DNA from: a virus
IMG/VR virus record: IMGVR_UViG_3300025044_000049
Location: 1-42,726 of that record
Length of the DNA stretch: 42,726 nucleotides
Direction: 5' to 3' (one strand)
Position numbers and translations under genes: made by a program. The notes below the pieces were generated by a model. That model was not told where the DNA came from. It made no database searches and saw only the letters and a list, made by a program, of their open reading frames with translations. Each line of letters opens with the position of its first letter. Position 1 is the stretch's first letter. Positions 27,380 to 37,252 of the stretch are shown piece by piece.

Positions 27380-27667
27380 AACCCTAGTAAAATCGCTCAA
27401 CCCTAGTAAGACCCTAGTAAATTATTTTCTTTATATTTCATACATTTATATGTCATTTACTAGGGTTACTAGGGTTACTAGGGTTGTTTTGCCTCGCGTA
27501 GAGAAAAAAACGCCTCAAATATCGCTATATTTACGCGTGTGCGCGCGCGTTTAACCCTAGCAACCCTAGTAAATCGGAAAAACGCCCCGCAAACCCGCGT
27601 GAATGCTGCACCTCATTTACTAGGGTTGAAAAAACCAACCCTAGTACAACCCTAGCAACCCTAGTAA
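27380..27667. repeat. Iteron-like array, probable replication origin
   Basis: Twelve copies of the nonamer CCCTAGTAA (three are variants, with CAA or TAC ends) lie within 288 bases. Eight are in plus orientation (27382, 27401, 27412, 27555, 27564, 27639, 27650, 27659) and four inverted (TTACTAGGG at 27457, 27466, 27475, 27617). An A/T-rich 36-base segment (27421-27456) and a GC-alternating run (about 27535-27550) lie inside. The array sits directly after the helicase gene's stop, as an origin with iterons and an AT-rich melting region would. A regulatory role for the adjacent Q-like gene is possible too. Confidence 0.7.
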
Positions 27668-27669
27668 AT

Positions 27670-29418
27670 TCAGCTCCCATATGCGCCACTTCCCGCCGCT
27701 GGCGCGGTAAAGCACACGCTTTTTTCCCATTTTTCGGGGTGCCAGCCGGCTTTTAATGCCTCTAACCGCCACTCATGCACGTATTCGCCCACTTGCCTTG
27801 CGTCATTCATCTTTAAATCTTTAGGCGGGCACGGCTGAAAGAAAATAGATCGTCGTCGTTGATTGTTTTCATCCATCCACCCAATTTGGCTTTCAGACTT
27901 CGCCAAATCTTGCTTGGTAGACATAAACAAACCGAACTTGGTGTCAGACAGCGAATGCTCTTTGAGCTTACTACACCACTCCAAGAACAAGTCGTGCAAA
28001 TCCTGCGTGCGACACAGCGTAAATGGTACACCCAGCTCGCCGGTACGCCACTGATTATAAAACGTCTCCCAGCTTGCTCTACTCAGCTCAACGAGCCGTT
28101 GGCGCGCTGGTGTATGCGGTGGCCTTGTGCGTTCGTCAAACTCGCCTACATCGTAATTAAGCAGGTAGTCATAAAACGCGGCAATGCCTCCGTTCTCAAG
28201 CTCCCAGCCAATCCGCTTTTGCGCTTTCTCTGGCAGGGTAAGCAAGGGCCATAACACCAACATTCTGCGATCGTTCTCGCCAATGGGCCACGGCATAATC
28301 TCATTCGACAGGAAAACAGCGTTCATGTAGTTCGCCTCTTCCCAGCCATTCACAAACTTACTTTCAATGCGCACCGTTTTACCGGTCACCATGTGTTTAA
28401 TTTTACCCACCTGGTTATACCGCTGGTCTCGGCTTACCACCTCTTCAAACAAACCATAAAGCTTATTGGCCTGCCACGCTGTCCAGTTAGACTCTAACTG
28501 AGCCTGACCAACCGTGGCGCCGTAGTCGCCATAAATTGGCCGCATAATACCGTCAAACAGCAGCGACTTACCCGAGCCTTCCATCGTCGAATGCATCAGC
28601 ACCGCCGTGTCCATTTTGGCCCCCACACGCTGTAATGGCAGTGCCAGCCAGCATGTTAACCAATGCACCGCATCGTCCTGCTTATTGCATAAAAATCGTA
28701 ATAGGCCACGCATACCCGAGCACAATTCAAGATCGGGGTGCGGGGTAAGAGGTAAACCCTCAAAGGTATTAATGGTGTCAGCGGGTGGCTCTTTCATACG
28801 CGGGTCAAACAGTAAATTCTCAGAAGGAATAACCCGCCGCTGATTACTGTTTTGCCACATTGTAAACGTATCACCCAACGCCAACTTAACCGCCGCCGCC
28901 GGCAAGCGCAGCCGTAATCGACGGTCATAAATATCTTGCGACCCATCTAAATACACATAGCGCCAAAATACATCGTCGGCATTGCTAACGTCCGACGACT
29001 TAAGACGCTTGCCCAGCTTAGCTTCTGTTTCTAACCGTTTAGCCTGGTCAGGATCTATGCCTTTTTTATCTGGCAAGTTGTACCACGCCGTCGCCAGCGC
29101 CTTACTTACCAACACCTCAAACCCTGTCTTCTTAACGACAGCCTTGCGGTATAAATCAAATACCTTGGTCTCACCTTCCACCAGCGCAAACCGAGTGGTC
29201 ACCTTAGCCAGCGTCCACCCCTCCCCGTACCCCTCGGTAGCTGGAGCCGCGCCAAATTCGACCTCGTCTTCAGATGGGGTTGGGGGAAGATCTACATCAG
29301 GCGAGCCAGCAGGCCGCACAGTAGGCTCACTATTAGCCGCCTGCAACAACTGAAACCGCACTACCTCTATGCCGTGCTCACAATGCAGGTCATTCCAATC
29401 TAACTTGCCGCCGCTCAT
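27670..29418 (-). CDS. Phage replicative helicase/primase-helicase (DUF5906-like)
   Basis: A 582-residue superfamily-3-style helicase. Walker A is STMEGSGKSLL (about 277-287), Walker B LYGLFEEV (about 320-327) and a sensor-like AVFLSNEIMPW follows near 370. The N-terminal 200 residues lack primase motifs, which are in the neighbouring gene. The two genes overlap by four bases and together resemble split primase-helicase replication proteins of temperate phages. It probably unwinds the phage origin; the adjacent iterons end within three bases of its stop. Confidence 0.85.
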   Translation of the reverse strand: MSGGKLDWNDLHCEHGIEVVRFQLLQAANSEPTVRPAGSPDVDLPPTPSEDEVEFGAAPATEGYGEGWTLAKVTTRFALVEGETKVFDLYRKAVVKKTGFEVLVSKALATAWYNLPDKKGIDPDQAKRLETEAKLGKRLKSSDVSNADDVFWRYVYLDGSQDIYDRRLRLRLPAAAVKLALGDTFTMWQNSNQRRVIPSENLLFDPRMKEPPADTINTFEGLPLTPHPDLELCSGMRGLLRFLCNKQDDAVHWLTCWLALPLQRVGAKMDTAVLMHSTMEGSGKSLLFDGIMRPIYGDYGATVGQAQLESNWTAWQANKLYGLFEEVVSRDQRYNQVGKIKHMVTGKTVRIESKFVNGWEEANYMNAVFLSNEIMPWPIGENDRRMLVLWPLLTLPEKAQKRIGWELENGGIAAFYDYLLNYDVGEFDERTRPPHTPARQRLVELSRASWETFYNQWRTGELGVPFTLCRTQDLHDLFLEWCSKLKEHSLSDTKFGLFMSTKQDLAKSESQIGWMDENNQRRRSIFFQPCPPKDLKMNDARQVGEYVHEWRLEALKAGWHPEKWEKSVCFTAPAAGSGAYGS

Positions 29419-30762: not shown

Positions 30763-30967
30763 GGCCCGACTCCTGTAATTGCTGGCAATACACACAACAC
30801 TCAACACCAGGTAACAATGCACGGCGCTTTTCAGGGATCTCTTCGCCACATTCCAAACAATGCGGATGATCTACCGCGGGGCGCGCAGCTTTACGCTTAG
30901 CCTCTGCTAGGGCCAAGTCCAACGCACGTTGGCTTTCTTCTGCGGCGTAGTCACATAAATCAGCCAT
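30755..30967 (-). CDS. DksA/TraR-family zinc-finger protein
   Basis: A 70-residue TraR-like protein with a C4 zinc finger: Cys 37 and 40 (HCLECGEEIP) and the CCVYCQ pair near 57-61. TraR/DksA proteins bind in the RNA polymerase secondary channel and change promoter choice; phage versions can act without ppGpp. The N-terminal helix (CDYAAEESQRALDLALAEAKRK) fits the short coiled coil of TraR. The start at 30967 has GGAGG six bases upstream and overlaps the CII-like stop. Confidence 0.88.
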   Translation of the reverse strand: MADLCDYAAEESQRALDLALAEAKRKAARPAVDHPHCLECGEEIPEKRRALLPGVECCVYCQQLQESGRG

Positions 30968-31445
30968 GGTTTTCCTCCGCAGATTGACGCGCACCGGCCA
31001 CAATACCCAGCACCTTGCTAATCACCTCGTAGCCGTAATGCTCAAGCTCTGCCACCTCATGAGCGTCCCAGCGCTGGTCTGCCACGCCGCTATTCAGGCT
31101 TTCTACAAACTCACCCGCCGCATTCAGCACCTCGCCTAGTGCCTTTAACGCATCACGCGTGCCCGGTACCGGCGTTACATCAAACAACACCTTGCCACGC
31201 GCACGGGCATACGCCTCGTCTATACGCGCATCGTCGGTAATGCTTAACAGGGTTTCAAATTCAGGCAGGGTTAAATGATGTGTGGTATTGGCAATACTCA
31301 GTTTCTTCTGAAGCGTGTCGTAATTAGTGACCATAATGGCCGCTATGGCCGTTAAACCGCCCCTGTATTCACGCGCAGCGCAGTACAACGCTTGGTGTAA
31401 ATCCATCACAGGGCCAGCGTCTGGCATCAAATGGTTTCGACTCAT
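30960..31445 (-). CDS. Phage regulatory protein CII-like (CP76 family)
   Basis: A 161-residue protein. Residues of about 14-75 (MDLHQALYCAAREYRGGLTAIAAIMVTNYDTLQKKLS ... LTLPEFETLLSITDDARI) match the CP76/phage regulatory CII family, helix-turn-helix proteins encoded just after cro in many temperate phages. The C-terminal half is helical and probably drives oligomerisation. The start ATG 31445 has GAGGGAA eight bases upstream. It probably activates lysogeny functions or early transcription; which one cannot be told from sequence. Confidence 0.82.
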   Translation of the reverse strand: MSRNHLMPDAGPVMDLHQALYCAAREYRGGLTAIAAIMVTNYDTLQKKLSIANTTHHLTLPEFETLLSITDDARIDEAYARARGKVLFDVTPVPGTRDALKALGEVLNAAGEFVESLNSGVADQRWDAHEVAELEHYGYEVISKVLGIVAGARQSAEENHG

Positions 31446-31525
31446 GGCGAAAATTCCCTCATATCGCCGTAGCCAAGACGCGGTGAATCCGCTTATTCTT
31501 GAACTGCGGCATGGTTGTGTCGCAC

Positions 31526-31575
31526 GCCTCGGGGTGGACTGTCTGTGGTGGGTGGACCACTCCGAGGCACTTTTT
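31526..31575. promoter_or_regulatory. Hairpin with CCACCCACCACAG loop (nut-like) and plus-strand terminator
   Basis: A 12-bp stem with one mismatch (GCCTCGGGGTGG at 31526-31537 with CCACTCCGAGGC at 31557-31568). On the minus strand, the sense of the early-right transcript, the loop displays CCACCCACCACAG (31555-31543), a motif shared with the early-left leaders. It lies between cro and the CII-like gene, the place of lambda nutR. On the plus strand it is followed by TTTTT and would act as an intrinsic terminator. Confidence 0.6.
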
Positions 31576-31627
31576 AATTATTTAAGTTAGACCTAATCCG
31601 GTTTAACACACCGCTATAGGACGGTTA

Positions 31628-31834
31628 ATGAGCATTCCAAACATCAGTCACCCCACAAAATTTAAAATCAAAGGAATGATTTTTGAGGTGATCTCCCACG
31701 GCCAGCTTACCAACGACCAAGCGTCCAAGATTGCGATGCACTTTTACCGCTCTCATAAATTTAAGAAGTCGGATCAAGGCAAATTATTTCAGGTGATGAC
31801 TCAGTTCGATTCCAATTCTGCAAACCTGCTATGA
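31628..31834 (+). CDS. Small hypothetical protein
   Basis: A 68-residue protein with AGGA six bases before its ATG. The sequence (FKIKGMIFEVISHGQLTNDQASKIAMHFYRSHKFKKSDQGKLFQVMTQFD) has a coherent beta-alpha pattern typical of real small conserved proteins, but I cannot name the family. It runs against the early-right operon and overlaps the minus-strand gene at 31761-31946 by 74 bases, tail to tail. The hairpin at 31526-31575 would insulate it from antisense transcription from the left. Confidence 0.5.
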   Translation: MSIPNISHPTKFKIKGMIFEVISHGQLTNDQASKIAMHFYRSHKFKKSDQGKLFQVMTQFDSNSANLL

Positions 31835-31946
31835 GCATGTCCTTATCAACCAATGGCAGCATCAACACGGTATCGGTTTCACAGGAATAAATTTCAATCA
31901 CATCGCCTTCACCTGCTGAGAGTGCTAACCGAATATGCTTATCCAT
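31761..31946 (-). CDS. Small hypothetical protein after cro
   Basis: A 61-residue protein beginning at ATG 31946 with GGAG seven bases upstream (chosen over ATG 31973 and 31964, which lack one). The sequence (HIRLALSAGEGDVIEIYSCETDTVLMLPLVDKDMLIAGL) is a compact mixed alpha/beta type. It sits directly after cro in the early-right operon and overlaps a plus-strand frame at its 3' end. No family is recognised. Confidence 0.5.
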   Translation of the reverse strand: MDKHIRLALSAGEGDVIEIYSCETDTVLMLPLVDKDMLIAGLQNWNRTESSPEIICLDPTS

Positions 31947-31975
31947 ACCTTGCTCCGTCAACATAGTAAACATAG

Positions 31976-32179
31976 TTATGCGGCCTTACCTATGCCCAAA
32001 GAATCAGAAGCTACTTTCTCTGAATGCGTTTTCTCGATTGATTTACCAACGTCATAACGGACTTTCGATCCATTTAATGCACGATAAATTGTTGGCTGGC
32101 TGCAACCCACAAGCTCTGAGATTTCACGCTGCGACATTCCCAGCGCAACCAGCTGTTTAAGCATGGCTTTAATTGTCAT
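31976..32179 (-). CDS. Cro-like repressor
   Basis: A 67-residue helix-turn-helix protein: LVALGMSQREISELVGCSQPTIYRALNGSKV (about 10-40) is a complete HTH with the recognition helix SQPTIYRALN. It is divergent from cI and separated by a 99-base operator region, the standard Cro position. The Shine-Dalgarno AAGGTG lies four bases before ATG 32179. It should repress the early promoters and cI transcription during lytic growth. Confidence 0.8.
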   Translation of the reverse strand: MTIKAMLKQLVALGMSQREISELVGCSQPTIYRALNGSKVRYDVGKSIEKTHSEKVASDSLGIGKAA

Positions 32180-32189
32180 ACGTCACCTT

Positions 32190-32239
32190 ATTCATTTGCG
32201 TATTTTTAATACAATACCCGAATGAATTAAAGCTCGCAA
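32190..32239. promoter_or_regulatory. PR promoter and CI/Cro operators
   Basis: The minus-strand promoter for cro: -35 TTGCGA (32239-32234), 17 bases, -10 TATTGT (32216-32211). The operator element ATTCATT-N3-GTAT overlaps the -10 (32227-32213, minus strand) and recurs on the plus strand at 32190-32204, forming a long imperfect dyad of about 38 bp. On the plus strand TACAAT at 32210-32215 or 32240-32245 are candidate -10 elements for cI transcription; no good -35 is visible. Confidence 0.75.
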
Positions 32240-32278
32240 TACAATATGCATATTTATTCAAAAGAGAATAGGCAGGTC

Positions 32279-32941
32279 ATGCAGAATCAGATCCCAAATC
32301 AGGGCACTTGGAGCAGGCTCAAAGCCACGATGGAGAAGCTTAACTGGAGTGAGCAAGAGTTAGCAGACCGCTCAGGCGTCCCACAACCCACTGTTCACAG
32401 AATTATAAATGGTCAATCCAAAAGCCCCCGCTACGAGAACTTATTCCGCATTATTAAAGCCCTAGGGCTTGAAGAGAACCCACTTCAAGTGCGCGAAGAC
32501 ACCAAAAGCTATGCGGCCAATACCCTTGAGGGCCCAACTTTGCAAGGCAAAGTACCACTTATATCTTGGGTTCAAGCCGGTGACTTATGCGAAGCCATTG
32601 ACCTATTCTCGCCGGGCTTAGCTGACGAGTGGCTCAACTGCCCTTTCAAGCATAGCGATAATGCATTCTGCTTAAAGGTAGTCGGGCTAAGCATGCACCC
32701 CGAATACCGCGAAGGCGAGATTATCCTTGTTGAACCTGCTCTTGAGGCAAGACATGGCGATGACGTAGTAGTTAGGACTCCAGAAAATACCACCACCTTC
32801 AAACGGCTACACGCCTCAGATGACGGCACCTATTTAATTGCATTAAACCCAGACCTAAAAAACCGCATTATTGAAATACCCGCAGATACCGTCTTTTGCG
32901 GCGTAGTAACCGGATCGTGGACTAACCGAAGAAACAAATAA
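32279..32941 (+). CDS. CI-type prophage repressor (HTH plus S24 peptidase)
   Basis: A 220-residue LexA/CI-like repressor. Residues of about 10-70 form the HTH (LNWSEQELADRSGVPQPTVHRIINGQ). The C-terminal S24 domain keeps the cleavage site Ala 100-Gly 101 (QAGDL), the nucleophile Ser 138 (GLSMHPEY) and Lys 175 (TTFKRL), so RecA-stimulated self-cleavage and SOS induction are expected. Start 32279 is preferred for its purine-rich site (AGGCAGG); ATG 32246 lies on a putative -10 and lacks one. A terminator follows. Confidence 0.93.
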   Translation: MQNQIPNQGTWSRLKATMEKLNWSEQELADRSGVPQPTVHRIINGQSKSPRYENLFRIIKALGLEENPLQVREDTKSYAANTLEGPTLQGKVPLISWVQAGDLCEAIDLFSPGLADEWLNCPFKHSDNAFCLKVVGLSMHPEYREGEIILVEPALEARHGDDVVVRTPENTTTFKRLHASDDGTYLIALNPDLKNRIIEIPADTVFCGVVTGSWTNRRNK

Positions 32942-32945
32942 CATG

Positions 32946-32985
32946 GCAAACGGACATAACGACTCGCATGCCGTTTGCTTATTTC
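32946..32985 (+). terminator. Terminator after cI
   Basis: An eight-bp stem (GCAAACGG at 32946-32953 with CCGTTTGC at 32971-32978) and a U-rich tail (TTATTTCATTTT), four bases after the cI stop. It separates cI from the convergent membrane-protein gene. Confidence 0.65.
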
Positions 32986-32997
32986 ATTTTGTTGCTA

Positions 32998-33378
32998 CTA
33001 ATACCTGCTTGAAGCACCCACAAAAATTCCGCCAAAAATACCCGTGACTATTAGAAAGATGACGGTAAGAATTATCATCGCCGGAATAGAGGCAAGCGCC
33101 CATTTCACCATAAAAGAAACCATAGATGAGAACGACATTTGAATATCAGTGATGACCACCCCATTAATGTTTTCTTGATCTACCTTTATGCCTGCAGACG
33201 TTTTTGAGCGAGCTACGCCAGCGCCTGAGAGCTCATTAGCGTTAACAAACCAATCGTCCCCCACCTTTCTGCCGACATAAAATCCATCGCGAATCATATC
33301 AACGGCCTTTGCCGGCGTAATCCCTTTGCTTCTTGCAAAGTCGTTAACTGGGATCATCCCTTCTATTTTTTCTGGCAT
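32998..33378 (-). CDS. Membrane protein with N-terminal HTH-like segment
   Basis: A 126-residue protein with GGAG and AGGG before ATG 33378. Residues 8-50 (IPVNDFARSKGITPAKAVDMIRDGFYVGRKVGDDWFVNANEL) resemble an excisionase/MerR-type winged helix. Residues of about 88-118 hold a strong membrane segment (WALASIPAMIILTVIFLIVTGIFGGIFVG). It is convergent with cI inside the immunity region, so it is probably expressed in the lysogen. This is a common position for superinfection-exclusion genes; that role is inferred. Confidence 0.65.
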   Translation of the reverse strand: MPEKIEGMIPVNDFARSKGITPAKAVDMIRDGFYVGRKVGDDWFVNANELSGAGVARSKTSAGIKVDQENINGVVITDIQMSFSSMVSFMVKWALASIPAMIILTVIFLIVTGIFGGIFVGASSRY

Positions 33379-33572
33379 ACCCTTGCTCCAATTTAATTGT
33401 CATTTATAGCTCACCCGCCGATTTACAGGCTGCATCTGCAATCCTATCTAATTAGGAAAAGTTTGCAACGATGCGGTAGGCAAAAGAATTGGACATCAAC
33501 GAACGTTAATGTCCTGTTTGCGTGGTAAGCAGATGATCACGAAGCGACTAAATACACCCATGCATTAAAATA

Positions 33573-33614
33573 ATTCATTTCAGTATTGATTTATTTAATT
33601 CATTTACGTATCGT
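33573..33614 (+). promoter_or_regulatory. PL promoter and operators
   Basis: -35 TTGATT (33586-33591), 17 bases, -10 TATCGT (33609-33614). Operator element ATTCATTTACGTATC (33598-33612) overlaps the -10 and ATTCATTTCAGTATT (33573-33587) overlaps the -35. The same ATTCATT-N3-GTAT element overlaps the PR -10 at 32227-32213, so CI and Cro should control both early operons. Confidence 0.75.
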
Positions 33615-33649
33615 TGTGTTGAACCCACCCACCACACAGGGTCAACACA
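33615..33649 (+). promoter_or_regulatory. Leader hairpin with CACCCACCAC loop (nut-like)
   Basis: TGTGTTGA-CCC (with a bulged A at 33623) pairs with GGG-TCAACACA, displaying ACCCACCACACA in the loop (33627-33638). It lies between PL and the first gene of the early-left operon. The 5' arm overlaps the predicted transcription start, so the full stem would exist in RNA only if the start is a few bases upstream or another promoter is used. Confidence 0.5.
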
Positions 33650-33844
33650 ATGAACCAGACACAACCATGCCGTATTTATTTACACCCCACGGCGGCCAAT
33701 AGCCCTGAAAAGATTCAGGCCGTTATTGCGCGCACCGGCTTAGCCGTTGTTATTGGCGGCAACAGTAAAGCCGCCGCCTTAACCCCCGCCACTATCTCAA
33801 GCAACGATCAGGACGATTTTGGCCCTTGGGATGGTGCCGCATGA
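33650..33844 (+). CDS. Early-left operon small protein 1
   Basis: A 64-residue protein, first gene after PL. The sequence (IYLHPTAANSPEKIQAVIARTGLAVVIGGNSKAAALTP) has a beta-alpha-beta flavour; the end is acidic. CAGGG lies upstream of the ATG as a weak ribosome site inside the leader hairpin. It overlaps the next gene (ATGATG at 33841). No family is recognised. Confidence 0.6.
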   Translation: MNQTQPCRIYLHPTAANSPEKIQAVIARTGLAVVIGGNSKAAALTPATISSNDQDDFGPWDGAA

Positions 33845-34125
33845 TGCTAACCCCCACACAGCGCTCACAGCAGCGCATTAAATCACTGCTCTTGTCGGCG
33901 TCATCTATTGTGGTGTGCCTGTCTAGCAACAACGCCACTGACACATGGGCACTACTGGCGCAGCTAGACATACAGCGCTCGCCAGAAGGTATAGCCCTGC
34001 GCCTTACCTGCCAAGACACCGTGAATAGCATCAGCATGGCTAACACGCCCTCACTCTGTGATGACGTAATTGGCTGGATAGAGAGCTGTGCCAACACCGA
34101 AACCTATCAGGAGGTGGCCGCATGA
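33841..34125 (+). CDS. Early-left operon small protein 2
   Basis: A 94-residue protein of unknown family (MMLTPTQRSQQRIKSLLLSASS...DDVIGWIESCAN). The start at 33841 overlaps the preceding stop; its own stop overlaps the next ATG (ATGA at 34122). It has no membrane segment. The tight chain of four-base overlaps shows that genes 33650-35320 are translated as a coupled series. Confidence 0.6.
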   Translation: MMLTPTQRSQQRIKSLLLSASSIVVCLSSNNATDTWALLAQLDIQRSPEGIALRLTCQDTVNSISMANTPSLCDDVIGWIESCANTETYQEVAA

Positions 34126-34448
34126 ACCCTCAACATCAAGAAAAAATAAACGCCCTACTGCTGCTGTGCATGCAAGTAACAGCTGAAGGCAAGTGGCACT
34201 GTTTTTTTGATTACTCAGGTCACGTTGATTCTATTAGCATTCGCGCTACTGACTCCTCATACCTATGGAATGAAGATAATCCAGCCACAGCAATAGAAGC
34301 CTTCAAGAGTCCACATATCAGGCTATATACACGTGAATTCGTCGATAACTCTGAGGTCGATCGCATCACCCGCGTACACGCCGAGCTAGATGCCGCCATC
34401 GCCTTGGTACAAGGCATCCTCAAACAGGAGGTGTGCCATGCCGCATAA
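34122..34448 (+). CDS. Early-left operon protein 3
   Basis: A 108-residue protein of unknown family with a mixed fold pattern (GKWHCFFDYSGHVDSISIRATDSSYLW ... AIEAFKSPHIRLYTREFVDNSEVDRITRVHAELDAAIALVQG). It overlaps the next gene by 11 bases. It is typical of small conserved early proteins in temperate phages of Pseudomonas and relatives; function unknown. Confidence 0.6.
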   Translation: MNPQHQEKINALLLLCMQVTAEGKWHCFFDYSGHVDSISIRATDSSYLWNEDNPATAIEAFKSPHIRLYTREFVDNSEVDRITRVHAELDAAIALVQGILKQEVCHAA

Positions 34449-34743
34449 ATACACCTTAGGCGCCGCCGCGAAAATGCTTGGCACTGGCCGCAACCGCCTG
34501 ACCGCACAGCTTAAACAGCGCGGCATTCTCGACCACAAATGCCTACCCAAAAAGCAAGCCGACATCGATGCCGGCCGCTTTGCTGTAGAGCTAAAACTGC
34601 ACACTGGCAACCCAGCGTGGAATCAGGGTAAAGGCCAGCTTTACCACCAAACCCTAGTGACCCAAAAAGGCCTTAGCTGGTTAGCTACATTACTGAACGT
34701 AAAAGTAATACACGCCGACGAGCAAAAGGAGCGCGCCGCATGA
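34438..34743 (+). CDS. KilAC-domain antirepressor-like protein
   Basis: A 101-residue protein that matches the KilAC C-terminal domain of phage antirepressors: YTLGAAAKMLGTGRNRLTAQLKQRGILD (3-30), then the QLYHQTLVTQKGLSWLATLLN end. The N-terminal Bro/Rha half usually fused to KilAC is absent. It starts at ATG 34438 with AGGAGGTG upstream. KilAC is thought to bind DNA or protein partners in antirepression, so it may modulate CI or Cro. Confidence 0.8.
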   Translation: MPHKYTLGAAAKMLGTGRNRLTAQLKQRGILDHKCLPKKQADIDAGRFAVELKLHTGNPAWNQGKGQLYHQTLVTQKGLSWLATLLNVKVIHADEQKERAA

Positions 34744-35081
34744 TGCACTTAATAGACAGCGCCAAAGGTGCATTAAAGCTTTGCCTGCTGCACATGCAAC
34801 ACCCCAGCGCAGTAGATGCGGCACAGGTGCAGGCCACTGCGAATGAAGCCATTGAACGGCTTGATTTAATAGCCACCAAAAACCAGCTAGAAGAAACCTA
34901 TTCAGCCGTGCGAGCTGTTATACCCCAAAACCTTCGGCTGGCCGTGGCACCAAGCAGCGTAAACGGCAGCTGCTGCGACGTTTTTATTTTTGACTTGAAG
35001 GGTTGCATGGGTGTTTACACCGGCAAGACCCCAAGCGGCATAGCAGAGTTCTTGCGCCTCAAATTCACGGAGGCCGCATGA
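34740..35081 (+). CDS. Early-left operon protein 5
   Basis: A 113-residue protein of unknown family. The N-terminal half is helical (LIDSAKGALKLCLLHM ... VQATANEAIERLDLIATKNQLEETYSAVRAV). The C-terminal half has cysteine-containing strands (SCCDVFIFDLKGCMGVYTGKTP). It starts with tandem ATGs overlapping the previous stop and ends overlapping the next ATG. Confidence 0.6.
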   Translation: MMHLIDSAKGALKLCLLHMQHPSAVDAAQVQATANEAIERLDLIATKNQLEETYSAVRAVIPQNLRLAVAPSSVNGSCCDVFIFDLKGCMGVYTGKTPSGIAEFLRLKFTEAA

Positions 35082-35320
35082 ACACCCTCGAACAGCTTCA
35101 GCGGCGCTACACAAAGCCCTACCTCACCCTAGAAGAAGTGCGGGCAGACCACCTGCCCCACATCAAGACCGACAGACACCTACTGCGCTTGATTAAAGAA
35201 GGCGTGGTAGATCTGCACCCCTCGCGGCTGCACAACTCAAACCGTGCACCGCGAGTGGTTTACCTACCTGACCTAGCGCACTGGCTTAACGCCACCATAG
35301 CTCAGGCCCACGCCGCTTAG
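35078..35320 (+). CDS. PrtN-like regulator (pyocin-activator family), copy 1
   Basis: An 80-residue protein resembling the PrtN family: TLEEVRADHLPHIKTDRHLLRLIKEGVVDLHPSRLHNSNRAPRVVYLPDLAHWLNATI. PrtN activates pyocin genes in Pseudomonas; phage homologues are small DNA-binding regulators. The longer frame to 35003 is discarded because the ATG at 35078 overlaps the prior stop. A second, clearer PrtN homologue is at 39950. Confidence 0.6.
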   Translation: MNTLEQLQRRYTKPYLTLEEVRADHLPHIKTDRHLLRLIKEGVVDLHPSRLHNSNRAPRVVYLPDLAHWLNATIAQAHAA

Positions 35321-35343
35321 GCACCCAACCAAGGAAAGCAACC

Positions 35344-35700
35344 ATGAAACCAACTGACCCAGGCGAAATGATCGCCCATTTAAACGCAGGTGTATTTGCT
35401 CAACAAATCGGCACAGCCTTATCTGCCGTGTCAGCCGCAGTTGTTAATCACAGCAAAAAAGGCCAAGTAATAATAACTTTGGACATGACGCAAATTGATG
35501 GCAGCCACCAAGTCAATATTGCACATACCCTGTCAGTTACTGAGCCGACCAAAACGGGAAAGCGTACCGAAATTGGCACACGAAAAACCCCCATGCATGT
35601 CACTTCAAATGGTCTGCAACCGTTTCCAGAAAACCCCACCGGCGACATGTTCAAAAACAAAGAGCCGTCGTCTCAATCACAACCAGCAGAGCGCCACTAA
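35344..35700 (+). CDS. Hypothetical protein upstream of DUF2303 gene
   Basis: A 118-residue protein of unknown family, with an AGGA-rich site (AAGGAAAGC) before its ATG. The central part (KKGQVIITLDMTQIDGSHQVNIAHTLSVTEPTKTGKRTEIGTRKT) is strand-rich; the end is Pro/Ser-rich. It is followed by the DUF2303 gene and the two may act together, as comparable pairs are common in temperate phages. Confidence 0.6.
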   Translation: MKPTDPGEMIAHLNAGVFAQQIGTALSAVSAAVVNHSKKGQVIITLDMTQIDGSHQVNIAHTLSVTEPTKTGKRTEIGTRKTPMHVTSNGLQPFPENPTGDMFKNKEPSSQSQPAERH

Positions 35701-35737
35701 GCGCGCTCAACCCTCCACCCACCACAGGATTTAAACC

Positions 35738-36553
35738 ATGTTTACAGCAGAAGCCTTAGACAAAATTACCTCAGCGTCATTTCTAGCCGCCGGTAAATCA
35801 CTAGTTACCGATGTACCGGTTGCAATCATTCCCCACGGCTACGACATTAAAAACATTGAACACCTGCAAGATCAACGCAGCCGCTTTCGGGGTGTGCTCA
35901 GCACCCAATCGCTACCAGATTTTTGTGATTACGTTATTGACCAATCTACCGCCGCGAACAAAGTACCCACCTTTGTAGACGCCGAATGCATGGCCGCCGT
36001 GGCCATATTCGACCTTGGCGACACAGCCTTACCACTGCATGCAGAGCACCAAGCCAAGCTCATTTTAAAACCCACCGCTGCCTATAACGCACTGCGCTTA
36101 ATTGCCGGTGGCCGCCACAGCCAACAGCAACTGGCCGAATGGGTAGAAGACTGGAACCAGTACCTAAAAGTAAAAGACAAAGATGGTGCAGACATACCGA
36201 TTGGCGTGGCCGTGCAAAAAATCCGCAGCATCACCATCAAAGCCAAATCAGAGGTCACCAGCACGCAAGAAAACTTTGGCGCCAGCCGCTCAGCCATGGA
36301 CAGCATAGAAGCCGCCCACGCAGAGCAACAACCACACGACCTAATCTTTACCACCAAACCCTACGAAGGCCTGCCACCCTTCGCCTTTACGCTACGCCTC
36401 AGCATCATCACCGGCGAAAAGCCCATGATTTGCCCCCGCTGGGTGCAAAAAGAAGCTCAGGAAGAAGAAATCGCCCAAGCCTTTAAAGACGTGCTCAAAA
36501 AGGAAATTGGCGGCATTAGCGTACTAACGGTTGGCACGTTTAGTACTAAGTAA
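35738..36553 (+). CDS. DUF2303 (YfdQ-like) phage protein
   Basis: A 271-residue protein of the DUF2303/YfdQ family, recognised from AVAIFDLGDTALPLHAEHQAKLILKPTAAYNAL and QQQLAEWVEDWNQYLKV, the usual middle section. Function is unknown; members occur in early-left regions of P22/Sf6-like and Pseudomonas prophages. Its leader holds a copy of the CCACCCACCACAG motif at 35715-35727, ten bases before the start, overlapping the ribosome site (CAGG). Confidence 0.85.
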   Translation: MFTAEALDKITSASFLAAGKSLVTDVPVAIIPHGYDIKNIEHLQDQRSRFRGVLSTQSLPDFCDYVIDQSTAANKVPTFVDAECMAAVAIFDLGDTALPLHAEHQAKLILKPTAAYNALRLIAGGRHSQQQLAEWVEDWNQYLKVKDKDGADIPIGVAVQKIRSITIKAKSEVTSTQENFGASRSAMDSIEAAHAEQQPHDLIFTTKPYEGLPPFAFTLRLSIITGEKPMICPRWVQKEAQEEEIAQAFKDVLKKEIGGISVLTVGTFSTK

Positions 36554-36642
36554 AACACAGCAATTTTTATTCAGCGGGCGGCATAGCGTGTCCGCTGAAG
36601 CTTGTTGATTTGAACTATTTAACTACAGAGCGAGATTTAAAC

Positions 36643-36924
36643 ATGGAAAACCAACATCGAAAAATTAGCGGCTATCGCGAACTTGATCAGGAGGAAATAG
36701 ACCTGATGAATGAAATTAAAGCACTTGGTCCACAGATAGAAGGGGTTCTTGTAAAGGTAGATGCCCATATTTGTAAACTGAACAAGCAAAGTACGATGGA
36801 TGAAGCCTTACAGCTCCGCTTGCATCAATCAACGGCATACCGCTTTTTAGATTTGGCTAAGACTGAAATGCAAACAGGCTTGATGTATGCGACGCGCGCT
36901 GTTGCGCAGCCTGAATTTTTCTAA
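36643..36924 (+). CDS. Acb2-like anti-CBASS cyclic-nucleotide sponge
   Basis: A 93-residue protein that matches the Acb2/Tad1 hairpin family: HRKISGYRELDQEEIDLMNEIKALG at the start and DLAKTEMQTGLMYATRAVAQPEFF at the end. Acb2 hexamers bind the cyclic di- and trinucleotides made by bacterial CBASS defence and so block abortive infection. Length and both signatures fit the family. It starts at 36643 in frame with no strong Shine-Dalgarno. It sits between DUF2303 and other small early genes, a usual place for anti-defence genes. Confidence 0.8.
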   Translation: MENQHRKISGYRELDQEEIDLMNEIKALGPQIEGVLVKVDAHICKLNKQSTMDEALQLRLHQSTAYRFLDLAKTEMQTGLMYATRAVAQPEFF

Positions 36925-36960
36925 CGATATTAAGTAGAGACCAGAAGCACTAAAAACCAA

Positions 36961-36998
36961 GCCCCAGCGCCTCCACCCACCACGTACCGGCGCTGGGC
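36961..36998 (+). promoter_or_regulatory. Leader hairpin with CCACCCACCACG loop
   Basis: A stem of about ten base pairs (GCCCCAGCGCC at 36961-36971, one bulged C, with GGCGCTGGGC at 36989-36998). It displays CCACCCACCACG (36973-36984) in the loop. It lies between the Acb2-like gene and the next gene cluster and has no U-run, so it is not a terminator. It shares its loop motif with hairpins at 31526 and 33615. Confidence 0.6.
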
Positions 36999-37033
36999 AC
37001 CAGACACAACCACTGAGCTTAATCGGAGCCGCT

Positions 37034-37252
37034 ATGAGCGAAACAATAGGCAATAAATTGCGGGGTATGGAACATGCCCGCAACGCACACAATGAAAATA
37101 TCGCGCGTATTACAGCGATTCTGCCCACGCTAAAAGGGCCGGAAAAATTACGTGCAGAAAAAAGCATCGCCAACCTTAGCACCCAAGTGCGCGAAATAGA
37201 CAAGCACCTGTTCCGCTCTGAATGCACAAAATTCAGCGGGGTGGCGGCATGA
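37034..37252 (+). CDS. Small coiled-coil hypothetical protein
   Basis: A 72-residue helical protein (NKLRGMEHARNAHNENIARITAILPTLKGPEKLRAEKSIANLSTQVREIDKHL), likely a coiled coil or helical hairpin. CGGAG lies about seven bases before ATG 37034. It ends overlapping the next start (ATGA at 37249). No family is recognised. Confidence 0.6.
   Translation: MSETIGNKLRGMEHARNAHNENIARITAILPTLKGPEKLRAEKSIANLSTQVREIDKHLFRSECTKFSGVAA

Follow-up and report, generated by a model that had tools for sequence, protein, structure and literature searches.

The early region of a 42,726-nucleotide (nt) stretch of viral DNA (IMG/VR record IMGVR_UViG_3300025044_000049, positions 1 to 42,726; the whole stretch is referred to here as the window) carries a repeated RNA hairpin with a constant loop and variable stems, usually accompanied by a short conserved box, and the same anatomy recurs on both early transcripts of a family of temperate phages of Pseudomonas and Halomonas. 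The element is best read as a family of cis-acting RNA sites for early control, comparable to nut or put. In the phages examined it is located close to the transcription start in the leader of the left early operon (PL) and between cro and cII in the leader of the right early operon (PR), as an earlier note on this DNA had supposed when it likened the positions of two copies to those of nutL and nutR. All of the evidence is computational. The observation is larger than that note described, since it includes a second element, the box, and extends to a whole phage family, and the 12-mer first noticed is one lineage's version of a broader loop.

The exact 11-mer CCACCCACCAC is present in four copies in the window, whereas 200 dinucleotide shuffles of the window contain 0.04 copies on average and never more than 1. 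All are in the early region and sense to their own transcripts, at 31555–31544 (minus strand) and at 33625–33636, 35715–35726 and 36973–36984 (plus strand), so that a recount agrees with the earlier note on both number and placement. Three copies form the loops of strong hairpins (A hairpins) whose stems are unlike one another in sequence, again as had been noted. The PR-leader hairpin, between the cro-like and cII-like genes (31526–31568, minus strand; fold z −3.46 against shuffles), has a stem of GCCUCGG/CCGAGGC plus GUGG/CCAC and the loop UCCACCCACCACAGACAG; that at the start of the PL transcript (33614–33650, plus strand; z −3.68) has a stem of UUGUGUUGA/UCAACACAA plus CCC/GGG and the loop ACCCACCACACA; and that preceding the gene at 37034 (36963–36997, plus strand; z −3.72) has the stem CCCAGCGCC/GGCGCUGGG and the loop UCCACCCACCACGUACC. 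The fourth copy, CCACCCACCACA followed by AAACCAUG upstream of the DUF2303 gene (35715–35726, plus strand), lacks a strong stem and folds no better than shuffles (z 0.27); the corresponding site is also unstructured in phages pAN and LPPA56. The second repeat, GACACAACCA (the B box), is found on the 3′ side of each of the strong hairpins, and the window contains no further exact copy (shuffles of the window give a mean of 0.1 and a maximum of 2). It is located at 31521–31512 (minus strand), where it continues as GACACAACCATGCCG, at 33658–33667 (plus strand) within the start of PL gene 1 (PL1), and at 37003–37012 (plus strand).

The element acts at the RNA level, as is evident from its orientation and from the co-variation of its stems. 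All 120 of 120 sites compared with the direction of their early operon are sense, with none opposite, and 143 hairpin-plus-box sites are found compared with 3 in the reversed sequence. When 5′ and 3′ arms were exchanged between sites with distinct arms (200 permutations), the observed mean pairing exceeded that of every permutation in each class of site: 16.1 versus 9.2 (standard deviation 0.41, maximum 10.3) for A loops at the 74 distinct PR-leader sites, 14.3 versus 9.3 (maximum 11.9) for PR-leader B boxes, 15.3 versus 10.2 (standard deviation 0.58, maximum 12.5) for PL sites, and 22.7 versus 15.9 (maximum 20.3) for the sites following DUF2303; the sites share ancestry, so that these are not counts of independent events, and only distinct arm sequences were used in order to lessen the effect. 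Swapping arms thus destroys pairing, and the compensatory changes are directly visible in the post-DUF2303 stems CCGCCGGC/GCCGGCGG, CUGCCGGC/GCCGGCAG, GGCCGGCG/CGCCGGCC and CCGCCGCC/GGCGGCGG.

Relatives were gathered in two ways. A DUF2303 profile gave 160 locus matches among viral and genome contigs, with 63 distinct PL leaders, and PL1 profiles gave 80 more, fetched without reference to DUF2303 or the motif; in this second set the loop is present in every leader with sufficient upstream sequence. Two IMG/VR contigs, L005 and L006 (DUF2303 proteins 86% and 73% identical), have all four copies in place and L006 has an additional fifth; the 36963 hairpin is kept in L005 and duplicated in L006. 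The PR-leader hairpin and box are kept in both contigs as well as in L070/L099 and L028, and in L070/L099 they are also kept in the PL leader. Annotated phages that are more distant but share the early gene order have the same anatomy in other letters, with loops such as CUCACCA, CUUACCA, CCUACCA, CUCUACC, CUCUGACC and CCCACCA and the box ACACAGCAC. The loop is CUCACCA and the box GGACACAGCAC in Pseudomonas stutzeri phage pAN, CUCUAC(A) and GACACAGCAC in Pseudomonas aeruginosa phage LPPA56, and CCCACCAC and AAACCAAUG in Halomonas phage H4907.

The element is abundant, with at least 266 PL1 relatives in IMG/VR together with many Pseudomonas prophages. A scan of all of IMG/VR for one pattern (CACCA, a gap and GACACAGCACATG) gave 112 matches on 100 stretches; 72 of the 75 matches with a real stem are in loci of the phage module encoding PL1, KilAC, PL5, DksA and CII, and of the 26 matches at which neither module genes nor DUF2303 are present, 23 have no stem. 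From these counts, and from the protein scans, the element is essentially confined to this Pseudomonas/Halomonas phage family. The exact 12-mer was rejected as a diagnostic, and TCCACCCACCACAGR alone matches many unrelated viral contigs that have neither hairpin nor box. DUF2303 was likewise rejected as the linked gene, as other Pseudomonas and enterobacterial DUF2303 phages are without the element. The earlier note had held that related phages keeping the genes without the motif would speak against it; there are such phages, with DUF2303 and YfdP but with none of the other early-module genes, and the motif therefore belongs to the module and not to DUF2303. The note's two other grounds for refutation, a motif as frequent in shuffled sequence and stems free of compensatory changes, are contradicted by the shuffle counts and the arm permutations. 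A second Pseudomonas DUF2303/YfdP lineage (e.g. L167, L170, L185 and L223) is without both the element and the PL1/KilAC/PL5/CII module, and DUF2303 therefore travels between two early-control systems.

Each phage has a single loop type, shared by its PL, PR and internal sites, and the types differ between Pseudomonas phages; types were assigned by pattern, with a minority of internal sites left unclassified. Across 49 non-redundant loci, sharing of loop type tracks the similarity of particular proteins (area under the curve, AUC, 0.91 for KilAC, 0.90 for PL1, 0.89 for PL5, 0.87 for DksA, 0.83 for CII and 0.82 for PrtN, and 0.92 for the Q-like protein, on 22 loci) and does not track DUF2303 (0.64), YfdP (0.60) or cI (0.51). 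Physical linkage must contribute to the tracking within each half of the module, but cI is located between the two halves, and adjacency alone therefore cannot explain it. Because the loop is constant in each phage, differs within a host genus and tracks one gene module, a phage-encoded partner is likely, and the data argue strongly for recognition of the loop by an RNA-binding factor that the phage encodes, for which a product of the PL1/KilAC/PL5 block is the most likely candidate.

All three candidate genes are in the left operon. PL1, its first gene (33650–33844, plus strand; 64 aa, phrog_13491 in PHROGs), begins with codons that overlap the box, and among relatives the box is kept in two PL1 reading frames (MDTAQ and MQTTQH), indicating that it is conserved as nucleic acid. 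The KilAC-domain gene (34438–34743, plus strand) matches Pfam ANT at 4.4e-12, and PL5 (34740–35081, plus strand) encodes 113 aa. The PrtN-like (PyocinActivator) gene at 35078–35320 (plus strand; Pfam 4.2e-19), part of the same module, and the cII-like regulator at 30960–31445 (minus strand; Phage_CP76, Pfam 1.4e-18; phrog_101, PHROGs 5.8e-29), which belongs to the module travelling with the element, are each present in 54 of 56 element loci.

How might such a site work? We suggest that a phage-specific loop with a YNACC core (CCACCCACCAC here), presented on a hairpin whose stem letters are arbitrary and usually followed 3′ by a linear or loop-presented box (GACACAACCA here, ACACAGCAC elsewhere), would be read on the nascent leader RNA by the phage-encoded factor, at a hairpin near the PL start and at an array between cro and cII. 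Binding might then modify RNA polymerase or shield untranslated RNA from Rho, and transcription would read through the early operons as it does at nut with N, or at put. The PR leader, which is untranslated and strongly structured and can reach about 350 nt, would presumably be exposed to Rho otherwise. Antitermination, or protection of nascent early RNA, is the function we rate most likely, at about an even chance. The earlier note had proposed an RNA-binding protein or an antitermination signal; the RNA element stands and a phage-encoded partner is likely, with antitermination the more tentative part.

Several observations weigh against this proposal. The early operons contain few intrinsic terminators, so that Rho-dependent or pausing events would be the main targets of any antitermination, and there are extra sites in several left-operon gene gaps, more than antitermination needs. 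Physical linkage could account for part of the AUC signal. The predicted PL transcription start is inside the 5′ arm of the PL palindrome, and the RNA hairpin there may thus be shorter than the palindrome. As in the earlier note, no N-like gene stands out: there is no family match in the window, and the arginine-rich small ORFs (open reading frames) listed resemble shadow frames. The best matches to boxA (CGCTCTTA) have 2–3 mismatches at all four window sites, as they do in 62 of 63 PL leaders, and the rrn-type boxA (GCTCTTTA) is approached to within one mismatch at a single place, 78 nt upstream of the PR loop. Nor is the ligand assigned by structure prediction. The PL1 model is poor (predicted local distance difference test, pLDDT, 57). 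The AlphaFold2 model of PL5 (pLDDT 86) is helix-helix-strand-strand-strand-helix, its C-terminal half being helix-strand-strand-strand-helix, and has no Foldseek match at E≤0.001; VIA-align gives Z of at most 6.5, to unrelated proteins, and matches to double-stranded RNA-binding domains and ribosome-hibernation factors (Z about 5) are within this background, so no RNA-binding fold is claimed.

There is also an ATG within 4 nt 3′ of the box at 159 of 467 boxes, which counts against antitermination and suits translation. The corresponding rival is post-transcriptional control, in which a phage RNA-binding protein acting on loop and box controls how early genes are initiated in translation or how their mRNA decays, with the hairpins stabilising or gating start sites as suspected for the Start Associated Sequence (SAS) and Extended SAS (ESAS) repeats of cluster K mycobacteriophages. 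At many internal sites the box immediately precedes AUG, in PL1 it overlaps the first codons, the cII start is itself within a hairpin, the pAN sites are in left-operon gene gaps with none at genes whose starts overlap, and a hairpin with a start-associated box has the anatomy of ESAS plus SAS (PMC3203893). However, the PR-leader array is separated from cII by 100–300 nt, its boxes mostly lack a start codon, and it is the PL and PR leader sites that are the most constant; we regard post-transcriptional control as a serious rival, though less likely than antitermination.

The location of the sites, the lack of an obvious N-like gene and the tandem hairpins of some PR leaders would suit an RNA that acts purely in cis and contacts RNA polymerase directly, like put, or one bound by a host factor (Nus, Hfq or Rsm), with no dedicated phage protein. 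RNA polymerase or a host factor would be expected to favour one loop, whereas the loops agree within each phage, differ within a host genus and track phage genes, and this seems unlikely. A DNA-level element – an operator, a recombination linker or an extruded single-stranded hairpin – would fit the overlap of the PL palindrome with the promoter discriminator and the presence of sites at gene borders in mosaic genomes; it is very improbable given that stem letters vary freely with complementarity kept, that orientation is always sense to the transcript and that sites occur deep inside operons. We propose, with roughly equal confidence for and against, a new early-control system in which an RNA-binding protein of the phage that is unlike N (PL1, KilAC or PL5) recognises multi-copy hairpins whose loops form specificity groups.

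To our knowledge, little is understood of how temperate phages other than the lambdoid enterobacterial ones control their early genes, and we know of no nut site or N protein recognised in these Pseudomonas and Halomonas phages; no description of the element was found in the open-licence literature. In lambda, nutL and nutR are in the PL and PR early leaders, nutR lying between cro and cII. The element shares with these a hairpin and a linear box in both early leaders and loop specificity groups among related phages, and differs in having no boxA, no arginine-rich N-like gene that could be found, more sites per genome, and a box that is 3′ of the hairpin or in the loop of another hairpin. Neither does it correspond to boxB, with its short stem and GNRA-like pentaloop, the loops here being of about 6–17 nt with a C-rich YNACC core and free stem letters. 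More than two sites are not without precedent, as coliphage mEp021 has three nut sites, with Gp17 (PMC11893012).

The put sites of HK022, with putL directly downstream of PL and putR about 270 nt downstream of PR, are of about 70 nt, form two stem-loops and need no phage protein (PMC9378689). The element resembles them in its location and in the structured leader RNA, but its PL leaders have a single hairpin and just a subset of PR leaders have more than one, and its loop co-varies with phage genes, which argues against protein-free action. SAS/ESAS repeats are described in cluster K mycobacteriophages (PMC3203893) and in Microbacterium cluster EF phages (PMC7302621), and the likeness consists of a box that at many sites is close to a start codon, of an inverted repeat upstream of it, of the high copy number and of restriction to non-structural genes. 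Hosts and sequences are unrelated, however, and the cluster K ESAS has conserved 17-bp arms and a variable spacer, the reverse of the constant loop and variable arms seen here, where the box also occurs in long untranslated leaders with no start codon beside it. If the loops are indeed specificity groups, each phage would control only its own early RNA; their natural variety makes loop-swap experiments straightforward, and a small new RNA-binding protein, if that is the ligand, would be a source of orthogonal RNA-protein pairs.

The PR leader contains further conserved structure. In most relatives the cro-cII interval is 100–350 nt with one to three A hairpins; the boxes sit in the loops of further variable-stem hairpins, 3′ of which are a conserved interrupted hairpin (domain C) and then a hairpin displaying the cII Shine-Dalgarno sequence in its loop. 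The window has a short version of this arrangement, with domain C (CCGCAGUUCAAGAAUAAGCGG...CCGCGUCUUGGCUACGGCG; 31465–31509, minus strand) between the box and cII, and the Shine-Dalgarno hairpin (GGCGAUAUGAGGGAAUUUUCGCC, then AUG; 31446–31467, minus strand) resembling the pre-cII hairpins of relatives. Across 25 relatives, 78.7% of domain C cells are paired, compared with 32–48% for slid partners, and 9 pairs have two-sided changes. None of the Rfam 15 covariance models matched the element, the PR leader or domain C. Together, domain C and the Shine-Dalgarno hairpin (31446–31509, minus strand) are a candidate cis-regulator of cII in their own right. In the KT1-like subgroup (L166, L266 and L275) the PR-leader box is followed by a short arginine-rich ORF (MHIGRGRRIGR...) running through domain C, which is not conserved in other subgroups.

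Two other features lie outside the element. Phage LPPA56 contains an Rfam RT-15 RNA (L133:12868–13058; 172 bits). In the window, ten copies of ACCCTAGTAA in both orientations are located at 27381–27670, between the Q-like gene and the 3′ end of the primase gene, and the corresponding place in relatives has ACCCAACACA (pAN and LPPA56) or ACCCTAACCA (KT1); these repeats are probably replication-origin iterons.

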